The position numbers and the translations under genes are program-made. The notes beneath the pieces were generated by a model. That model did no database searches, was not told the origin of the DNA, and saw only the letters and a program-made list of their open reading frames with translations. From Roridomyces roridus (lineage: Eukaryota; Basidiomycota; Agaricomycetes; Agaricales; Mycenaceae): a DNA stretch of 64,000 bases. The stretch covers positions 186,001-250,000 of the forward strand of contig JARKIF010000027.1 in the NCBI GenBank assembly GCA_029378245.1. The letters run 5' to 3'. This document shows positions 49,567 to 52,829 of this stretch, piece after piece; the first letter of the stretch is position 1, and each line of letters starts with the position of its first letter.

Positions 49567-52066
49567 ATGGCTTTTATCTCGAACGCCAGTGGCTTCACGC
49601 TGGGCGAAGGCACCTTCAACAACATCCACGCGAATGTGGTGAATATACACCACGGAGGCAAACGCCGGCGAGGAGAGCACCAAGGTCCAGTTTCTGCTAT
49701 CCTGTCCGCAGAGCTAATCCTTTCTCTTCAGATGATCCAGATGCTGAACTGAGCCGTGGAGAAACCACTCAACGCCGAAAACGAAGGCGCGAGGAAGAAA
49801 GAGATGGACTGAAGGTGCGTGGTGGTTTAGGGCTTCACACACTATTGTGGGATCTCAAACCGACACAGATTATTCGGGCCAAGCACCTCATGCTCCATCA
49901 TCAGCTCGACATCGGTGTAAGGTCAGAGTATCTGCTCCACACAGGCGAAATCAAGGGCCGAGCGGTCATAGTCAAGGTGTTTCACGCAGACTCTAGGGCT
50001 CGTGAGGTGTGTCACGTCGAATCCGCCCATTGGTGTCGAATCAAATTTGCATAGCACTTGGAGGAGACGGTATCGCTATCCAAGGGACTCTTGTAAGTGC
50101 AGACGGGAAAGAATTGACAGTGTTTAATGACTCTTCCATTCAGACACCCCAATCTAGCACGGATTGTGGGAATATCTTCGCCTTCGTCTCCAGCTCATTT
50201 CATAGCGTACGAGAACGGTAATTCCCCGACAGAATCAAAGTTGTGCGGCTGATGCTTGCACCAGGTGGTTGGCAAACAGCGGACAGACCGCTCGCAACTG
50301 CGCTGAGGGACGATCTTGAAAGGAGTATCGTGTTAGGATTTAAAATGGTCCGTTTCTTCTGTAGCGGCAGCTTGTTGCAGCGACTCACTGGTTTACAGGT
50401 TTCTAACCTCTCTGTAGGTTGTCTGCTGGTGTATCCATAACTAATGCTGAATTTCATCTCTCAAGTCGGGATTGAACTATCTGAATTTGCACGGCGTGTG
50501 TTTGGGAGCTCAGGTATATTTCGTCCCTTACTCCCCCGTTTACCTTGCTTCAAATTCAACAGAGTTTCGACGTTTTCTTGGACATCAACGACCGGTTTTT
50601 GATTAGCCTCAGTCCCCCTGCTCCATCCTCGATCGTGAACGGTTCGGAACAAGATCAAACAGATGATCCGGGCAGCGTCTGGGATCTATTCAACGCGTTG
50701 TGCCAGAAGGTATGAGTTTTTCCACCAATAGATGCATGATGTTGAACTTCACTGGCATGTAGGTTTTGAGATCCGCGAACCGCGTGTTGCATAGTTGGTT
50801 GATTTCTTCTGACACACATTGGCATTCTGAAATTCCCGGTAGACGAAGATCTTGAAAGGACACCTGTCGATTTCGATTCACCGTCTCCCTCGAAGTCAAC
50901 CCTTTCGCCTTCTTTGTCTTCGGTGTCTCCACAGGCACAAGATCAACAACCAGGATCCCTTCTCAATGATACAGAGGAGCTTGCTCCTGCTCCGCCGATC
51001 CCGCCGCGGCGAGAGTACGTCTGGCGAACGAAGGGGTTTCCGCAACCTTTGGGCACCGTTGCCGCCCAGATCAGTCGAGATCTCGACGTGCGCCGGGCCA
51101 TTGTCCATAGGCTCACTAGGAGCGATGGCAGAAGCCGACACCGCTGCCCAGGCTATGTACGTGAAGAGATAACACTCGCACCTAGCCCGGGCGATAGCGC
51201 GGTCGTATCTCATGATACACCCACGCTCCAGGAAGTGTGCTTGATCTGCCATCAGGTCGTTGACTGGGATGATTTTGAATGGAAAAATGTGGATGCTATT
51301 ATCGAGAACAAGGTGTATTTGGGCAAGTCAGTGGTTTCTTCCTCGAGTTCAAGAGCTTTTTTCGAGTGCTAAAAACCATCTATTCAGCCTTGTGGCCGCT
51401 CGTTCCACCAGATCGCTAACAGGTTCGTTCCTTTCATGGTCGATGCCACTCGACTGACTGGGACCGACAAACCGTAGAGCGGCGCATCACCCATGTTTTA
51501 TCTATCTGTACCGATGCATTACCAGCGGAGTTGCCGCAATCTGGATTTCAGCACATGCGCATCCCTATCGAGGATGTGGATTCTGCAGATCTTCTGGTCC
51601 ATCTTCCTGCAGCTTGCCAATTCATTAATCATGCGTTGCAAACCGGGGGAGCAATTTTGGTCCACTCTGTTCAGGCTCGTGATTTGTTTATTCGGGTTCA
51701 TCTGACCTGATGACTTGACGCCAGGGTATTTCTCGGAGTGCCGCAGTCGTGGCGGCCTACCGTAAGCTCTTTTTATTGCTAGCTCATTCGATTGACGAGT
51801 CGCCGTCAAGTTATGTGGTTTCAGCGTATTGCACTGACTCAAGCATTGCAAGCAATTCGAAAAGGTCAAGTCAATCCTTCTGGTTCAAGCAGCCGGTCCT
51901 GATGTGTCGAGTAGCGCGGCCCCAAATTTGGCCGAACGCGGACTTTCAGGAACAACTTGTGCTTTTTGAACTTTGTCAATACGCACCGTCGCCGGCAAAC
52001 GGTATCTATCAGAGTTGGAAATCGAAGCGCGATCGTCAGCTCAGGGCAGCAGGTATTGACGGTTAA
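49567..52066 (+). CDS. Pseudokinase fused to a dual-specificity phosphatase domain with Cys-to-Ser active site
   Basis: Sixteen exons: 49567-49684, 49732-49814, 49869-50006, 50055-50092, 50144-50217, 50265-50347, 50399-50413, 50466-50513, 50563-50709, 50763-50793, 50843-51326, 51388-51422, 51478-51674, 51725-51761, 51811-51864, 51915-52066; 577 residues, phase correct throughout. Residues 1-400 parallel copies A and B: MAFISNASGFTLGEGTFNN, N-lobe VIVKVFH, no HRD (GVCLGAQSFDVFLDINDR), RREYVWRT, HRCPGYVREE, first zinc pair CLICHQ. At about residue 400 (base 51268) the PHD finger is replaced in frame by a phosphatase: DDFEWKNVDAIIENKVYLGN, RRITHVLSIC, IPIEDVDSADLL, then HSVQGISRSAAVVAAYLMW, ARPQIWPNADFQEQL. 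The HCxxGxSRS signature has Ser495 (TCT) for Cys; Arg501 is kept. Intron 51675-51724 has a GC donor. Probably a non-catalytic binding protein. Confidence 0.78.
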
Positions 52067-52829
52067 AGTCGGGTTTTGCGAGGGAGGACAATTGACGGCT
52101 AGGTAGCATAAATTTAAATGGGGCACAGAAGATTCCGCCAGGCTCGGCAGTGTTACACTGTTAGGTAGTGTTTCGAGTCTTTTCGAACTTTGAAGAAGTA
52201 GGGGACTGAGTATTCTGTTCCTGAACATCGAGACGGATCCAATTATTACATAGTACTAACGACATGACTCTTCGCGAATCGCGAGGATTTCCAACCCAAG
52301 ACACTTTTTTCACCATTCAAGTGATGGCTCCAAGCTGCCCAAGGGGGCATCGGGATCCGAATTTTGGATATAGGGTCGAAAAGTTTTTTTTTTTCAACCC
52401 TGGCTGGCCCCCCCCACCCCCCCCACCCCCCCCCCCCCCCCCCCCCTCCCCTCCTATATAAGGCAGATCATTCCCACGGTCATGTGATTTACCGGCAGTC
52501 CGAGCCATCTGTGGTTCCCAACCATAGGAAAAATATGTATTACAAACTTATTAGAGGACCCCAGTGTCCATTAGACCCATCTCATGTGTACTTGAGCAAT
52601 GATACACTTGTTGTCTGTGGCAATGTCTTGTGAGAGTCGGTGAGACTGGCAGCTGTATTAACTAATATATCAGTCCCGATTTGGAAATTTCAATCAAGAG
52701 TGTCCAATATGCTCCAAAACACATTTACTAATATACATCTAGAAATTTTTTTTGAGCCCTCTCGGGACCCCCCCCCCCTCCCCCGGTACGGTCGTCACTC
52801 TTCCTCTTCCTTCTCAATCTCTCCCCAAA
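52067..52829. other. Intergenic with poly-C low-complexity tracts
   Basis: No gene. Contains a T10 run followed by a C-rich stretch of about 45 bases (52409-52455) and a second C-run at 52771-52787, each just after a T-run. Homopolymers like these are prone to slippage and assembly error. Confidence 0.6.

Follow-up and report, generated by a model that had tools for sequence, protein, structure and literature searches.

The 64,000-nucleotide stretch of Roridomyces roridus DNA analysed here, hereafter the window (contig JARKIF010000027.1 of assembly GCA_029378245.1, positions 186,001 to 250,000), carries a gene whose predicted product joins a kinase-like half to a dual-specificity phosphatase (DUSP) half that lacks the catalytic cysteine. 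We consider it somewhat more likely than not, at roughly 0.55, that this gene has been maintained and codes for a double pseudoenzyme: a Cys-less DUSP duplicate would have been captured by a gene coding for a pseudokinase and a PHD finger, the PHD finger would later have been lost, and the product would act as a non-catalytic, phospho-dependent scaffold. The features of the gene are the following.

49567..52066, + strand: whole gene, 16 exons, 577 aa, from the rebuilt exon model and spliced alignment
49567..51276, + strand: pseudokinase module, residues 1-403, made of exons 1-10 and the larger part of exon 11
50843..51326, + strand: exon 11, a single open exon with the end of the kinase module, the PHD remnant and the start of the phosphatase
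51232..51264, + strand: PHD finger remnant EVCLICHQVVD, with the first CxxC only (compare the whole PHD finger of copy C1c and of two relatives in the window, below)
51277..52063, + strand: pseudophosphatase half, residues 404-577, with a DSPc match at residues 416-546 (E 2.3e-26)
51573..51575, + strand: general-acid candidate Asp464 (EDVD), retained; position derived from the exons and the sequence
51663..51739, + strand: P-loop HSVQGISRS, with Ser495 (TCT, 51666-51668) and Arg501, interrupted by the intron 51675-51724 (GC-AG)
51669..51674, + strand: alternative GT donor GTTCAG, whose use would remove two residues from the P-loop

The rebuilt model agreed with the original prediction of an unbroken frame of 16 exons and 577 residues. 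The coding sequence is 1734 nt long, and 14 of the 15 introns are GT-AG, the one at 51675-51724 being GC-AG. Spliced alignment returned identical exons and no frameshift (the query being the same window protein, this is a consistency check only). Exon 11, of 484 bases, carries the junction and is open in the frame used, as were 23 of 5000 first-order Markov shuffles. The frame lacks a Met between residues 178 and 458, which means that the phosphatase half could start from its own ATG only from the middle of the domain onwards.

The protein scored 92.6 bits against DSPc, above the curated cut-off of 33.5. The P-loop came out as foreseen, with Ser495 in place of the catalytic Cys of HCx5R, as in a pseudophosphatase, and with Arg501 and the SRS end kept; Asp464 and the Asn of the LGN motif are also retained. 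The kinase-like half has neither HRD nor DFG, and its only Pfam match was below the cut-off (13.8 bits against the 23.1 required). Its glycine loop reads VRSE, as opposed to SGPG in most of the family, and the VIVK lysine is retained. Across 121 aligned rows of the pseudokinase family, [HY]RD was found in none in the relevant segment and a DxG-like string in two (P0062 and P0107). The predicted structure of the paralogue P0001 gave a good model in the N-lobe only, where a kinase N-lobe fold was seen, and nothing but one PHD finger came up when the PDB was searched by sequence with the kinase profile. As had been noticed before, the pseudokinase module is present twice more in the window, each time running into a terminal PHD finger:

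about 17756-16096, - strand: relative with pseudokinase module and PHD finger
about 21408-19716, - strand: relative with pseudokinase module and PHD finger

The pseudokinase family is large (178 matches among 8000 scored candidates), and the names among the 120 matches listed are Mycena, Roridomyces or Favolaschia. We scanned 50 members picked from the best 120 of the 178, partly for domains already visible, so that the tallies reflect variety and not frequency; their C-terminal modules were PHD, PAH, SCA7, dsRBD, homeodomain, C2H2, bZIP, GATA and DUF6699. The phosphatase fits as one more C-terminal module of this family.

In DNA searches the kinase-phosphatase gene was found in four near copies, the window gene and three others:

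C1:320846-323342, - strand: near copy C1b
C190:257278-261598, - strand: near copy C190b
C1:298831-302552, + strand: near copy C1a

The window gene and C1b have collinear flanks, inverted relative to each other, and are therefore taken as alleles on two haplotypes. C1b is intact: it too codes for 577 aa in the same 16 exons, some of which differ in length from those of the window gene (by +6, +3, -6 and -3), and 15 of 15 introns have GT-AG borders. C190b and C1a are 98.9-99.5% identical to each other in three blocks; the former has an insertion of about 1.85 kb in exon 3 and the latter one of about 1.2 kb in exon 14. The exon 3 insert (C190:259330-261177), which we take to be CACTA-like, has inverted ends CACAGGGGG..CCCCCTGTG and is flanked by AGA on both sides. 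The recurrence of the junction in the four near copies, on two contigs, rules out a collapsed assembly at this point, which had been considered as a possible source of error.

A further copy, C1c (C1:475503 to a stop at 478379), codes for a kinase module, a PHD finger, an acidic linker and a phosphatase in one frame of 707 codons. Its P-loop reads HSVQGLSRS, and neither a stop nor a frameshift was found, also when the window protein was used for spliced alignment. The model has two weak points, a short GC-AG intron (476412-476454) in the kinase part and about 60 read-through bases inside the PHD finger, which are probably an intron. Synonymous divergence (dS) in the phosphatase was 0.53 between C1c and the window gene, 0.64 between C1c and C1b, and 0.285 between the window gene and C1b. 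A DNA search found no phosphatase counterpart of C1c on C190. That C1c has a PHD finger and a linker between kinase and phosphatase suggests to us that the window gene probably lost its PHD finger; the simplest history would be that the kinase-PHD-phosphatase arrangement came first and that the near copies descend from an ancestor that lost the PHD finger. The direct switch from kinase to phosphatase at 51268, as originally envisaged, is unsupported, with the PHD finger and linker still in between in C1c. Nor is the junction of recent date, as C1b has it intact and the diverged C1c also joins the two halves in a single frame.

The original prediction treated the Ser as a recent change private to this gene, one base away from Cys. 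This is not supported: the codon at the nucleophile position is TCT in all five fused copies, and Asp, Gly or Ser stands there in the scorable rows that we assign to the Mycenaceae. A search for an ancestral stand-alone phosphatase with Cys had been suggested; the stand-alone paralogue found at C442:1839370-1840098 has Asp at this position; this protein of 175 aa (C442, identical to P0121) reads HDVQGVSRS (GAT). Another member, C1d (C1:231830-233030), reads HGVQGISRS (GGT) and is preceded by a different upstream sequence. C1d lies in frame behind several hundred open bases that resemble part of another protein, and may be a second fusion. The final intron of the window gene is matched by one in C1b, in C1c and in C1d; C442 has no equivalent. 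In total, Cys was absent from all seven R. roridus members of this phosphatase group found by DNA search. The genome also has more distant DUSPs with Cys, for instance C246, whose loop reads HCVMGISRS; this loop is shared by Mycena haematopus P0241 (43% identical).

We scored the Cys position in the best 120 of 355 homologues of C442. Among the 36 rows assigned to the Mycenaceae, which include four R. roridus duplicates (P0143, P0151, P0200 and P0230), Asp was found in 29, Ser in three, Gly in two and a model gap in two; none of the 34 scorable rows had Cys. The other 84 rows had Cys (79), Gly (three) or Ser (two). Three Mycena floridula rows (P0222, P0233 and P0235), from a species placed by NCBI in the Mycenaceae, have Cys; they were counted outside because the tree groups them with other Agaricales and because the species has since been transferred to Atheniella. 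If NCBI names alone are followed, Cys is present in 3 of 37 scorable Mycenaceae rows. The rows outside the family with Ser or Gly (P0206, P0215, P0197, P0228 and P0236, from Macrolepiota, an unnamed metagenome protein, Collybiopsis, Dentipellis and Auriscalpium) fall in three places in the first tree. That tree was built without P0143, which equals the window phosphatase half minus two P-loop residues, and without the short P0140, P0156, P0189 and P0205; for the second, P0200 and P0219 were also left out and 22 of the 84 outside rows were used. One branch separates the Mycenaceae rows from the rest, with a support of 69 in the first tree and 94/84 (not starred) in the second. The Ser rows were drawn among the Asp rows, but all four groupings compared were compatible with the data in approximately unbiased (AU) tests (p 0.37-0.48). 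Codon counting leans towards an origin of Ser from Cys, as TGT to TCT takes one step and GAT to TCT two. The general-acid Asp and the Arg were invariant in a 48-row phosphatase alignment. Judged from these alignments, the catalytic loss appears to belong to the phosphatase of the clade and not to the window gene alone.

Both halves of the gene appear to be under constraint. As had been proposed for related strains, nonsynonymous to synonymous ratios (dN/dS) were compared, here between the two alleles, and both were well below 1, with intervals that exclude it: 0.36 (0.24-0.50) for the kinase half, from 401 codons, and 0.41 (0.23-0.65) for the phosphatase half, from 173. When changes were polarised by C1c, the C1b branch was constrained in the kinase (0.31, p 2e-4) and in the phosphatase (0.34, p 0.003); this test ignores transition bias and drops 31 unpolarised changes in the kinase and 11 in the phosphatase. 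Against C442, pN/pS was 0.14, with synonymous sites saturated. The Cys-less domain thus appears to have been retained for a long time. With intact frames in both alleles and pairwise ratios of this size, we do not favour the young pseudogene offered earlier as an alternative, even if the window branch taken alone does not reach significance. The 3' part of the window gene (51323-52045) is 97% identical to C190b and about 85-88% identical to C1b, which suggests gene conversion and makes the window branch harder to interpret.

Several observations weigh against a single, maintained scaffold protein. The public models divide the gene at the junction: P0143 (partial), P0200 and P0230, matched by sequence to the window gene, C1b and C1c, respectively, present the phosphatase half as a gene of its own, and a kinase half with this phosphatase was found in none of six annotated proteins of 317-1010 aa (none better than E 0.4). 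Transcription or translation might then stop near the junction and leave the phosphatase half as a separate protein or an untranslated remnant. We regard this as unlikely, given the missing in-frame Met, the location of the junction within one open exon in the window gene, C1b and C1c, and the constraint on the phosphatase half after the fusion, both pairwise and on the C1b branch. Splicing at the P-loop raises a related difficulty. The donor of the P-loop intron is GC in the window gene, as in C190b, C1a and C1d, whereas C1b and C1c have GT and a full loop. The GT donor at 51669 (TCT followed by GTTCAG) also preserves the frame, and its product would read HSGISRS, as does P0143; a loss of two residues at the same place is seen in six Mycena models (P0125, P0128, P0132, P0137, P0140 and P0142). 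Such splicing would leave the phosphate loop short of two residues, and binding of a phospho-ligand would then be unlikely.

The GC donor may also be a sign of decay in the window allele, and so may an Asp at a nearly invariant Gly position (NADFQEQ). Exon 11 differs between the window gene and C1b by a compensated -1/+1 indel pair, which puts about 20 linker residues, from the kinase to the PHD remnant, in different frames. Constraint on the window branch was not significant in the kinase (0.53, 22 nonsynonymous to 13 synonymous changes, p 0.07) or in the phosphatase (0.51, 18 to 11, p 0.08), and the window allele may be slipping. At the inverted twin locus (C190b and C1a) the gene is interrupted on both haplotypes, by different inserts, while the window/C1b locus is intact on both. 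Together with the lost glycine loop, the GC donor, the window branch and the interrupted twin locus speak for a gene that was functional in the ancestor and still is on the other haplotype, but is relaxed in the window allele and broken at the sister locus. We hold this to be improbable in view of 577 codons without a stop or frameshift and of the constraint on both halves of C1b. That the phosphatase is still active, with another residue taking the place of Cys, would agree with the invariant general-acid Asp and Arg and with the persisting constraint. Such activity is very hard to reconcile with the presence of Ser, Gly and Asp at the nucleophile position in R. roridus, Gly being incapable as a nucleophile, and Cys-to-Ser forms of DUSPs are standard inactive constructs.

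We return to the double pseudoenzyme. A stand-alone DUSP, which lacks its catalytic Cys in the Mycenaceae sampled, would have been duplicated, and the duplicate would have been added at the C-terminal end of a pseudokinase-PHD gene of the Mycenaceae. The kinase-PHD-phosphatase stage would still be visible in C1c, and the PHD finger would have been lost afterwards at the window locus. The window protein would be devoid of catalysis. Its P-loop, with an uncharged Ser and with Arg and Asp kept, may bind a phosphorylated partner, like Cys-to-Ser DUSP forms and STYX-type proteins; it is by analogy with the latter that we infer binding without turnover. The kinase-like half could provide a second contact surface, so that the protein would tether or shield a phosphoprotein. 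On this analogy, the likeliest role would be that of a non-catalytic, phospho-dependent scaffold. With its Asp, the stand-alone paralogue would be negatively charged at the phosphate site and may bind another ligand; more speculatively, Ser or Gly would reopen the pocket.

The architecture had been thought undescribed. Among the papers listed that pair both terms (subscription journals lie mostly outside them), no protein with both a pseudokinase and a pseudophosphatase was found, and to that extent the claim stands. It does not extend to kinase and phosphatase-like domains in one chain, a combination known from GAK, whose PTEN-like domain is inactive. GAK has a kinase that phosphorylates AP2 mu2, a PTEN-like, lipid-binding domain, and clathrin-binding and J domains (PMC12146748); GAK thus resembles the window protein in its single chain and differs in its active kinase, in the PTEN-like nature of its second domain and in its extra domains. 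Receptor PTPs and Janus kinases also have a pseudo-domain inside a signalling chain (PMC5106787). There, the partner of the dead domain is active and of the same family, whereas both domains of the window protein look dead and belong to opposite families. Unlike STYX, MK-STYX (DUSP24) and DUSP27, the window pseudophosphatase is fused to a kinase-like half. It keeps the P-loop His, for which MK-STYX has Phe (PMC8907265), and in sequence and fold it is closer to DUSP19/28/22 and DUSP12 than to the STYX group. The nearest solved relatives of the paralogue P0121 are DUSP19/28/22, with STYX at 4.5e-13, which is not the pattern of a STYX or MK-STYX orthologue. This, and the Cys kept in related fungal proteins, suggests that the Cys was lost separately from the STYX group. 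Stand-alone Agaricales DUSPs of about 175 aa, such as P0141 (named dual specificity protein phosphatase 1B in its source; 78% identical to C442), align along the whole phosphatase half; they differ in being unfused and in mostly keeping the Cys (79 of 84 rows not assigned to the Mycenaceae here). The ingredients are known, and their combination is unusual. A literature search on Roridomyces roridus and its genome yielded a single paper, on the luminous fungi of Japan.

Matches to the pseudokinase gene form two clusters, at C190:20-262 kb and at C1:299-595 kb. These are probably two haplotypes of one region, inverted relative to each other; collinearity was examined around the window gene only. 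A homeodomain occurs in part of the family, and matches to this domain are found within the clusters at C190:45032 and C1:522689. The usual flank of the homeodomain (HD) mating-type locus is MIP, of the Peptidase_M3 family. We rejected the clusters as that locus, as Peptidase_M3 was found only on C491, C63, C37 and C223 and neither on C190 nor on C1; on C491, homeodomain matches lie at most 14 kb from Peptidase_M3. C-rich runs are found a little downstream of the window gene (about 52405-52455 and 52770-52785 of the window).

More tentatively, a broader history is possible. A conserved, active DUSP would have become a constrained pseudophosphatase, by a change from Cys to Asp, near the base of the Mycenaceae, and would then have been recruited by an array of pseudokinases that is specific to this lineage and can exchange its C-terminal modules. 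The outcome would be proteins dead in both domains, of the kinase-PHD-phosphatase and the kinase-phosphatase type, which would recognise phosphorylation but neither add nor remove it. The Asp in place of Cys in the stand-alone DUSP of the Mycenaceae is arguably a bigger story than the fusion. Pseudokinases and pseudophosphatases have mostly been studied singly, beside an active partner; here both dead kinds are predicted in one fungal chain. The same genome also has a relative with three domains, and other mushrooms have homologues that keep the Cys. With Cys outside the set and Asp, Gly or Ser inside it, these proteins could be used to test why a phosphatase fold persists without phosphate hydrolysis.
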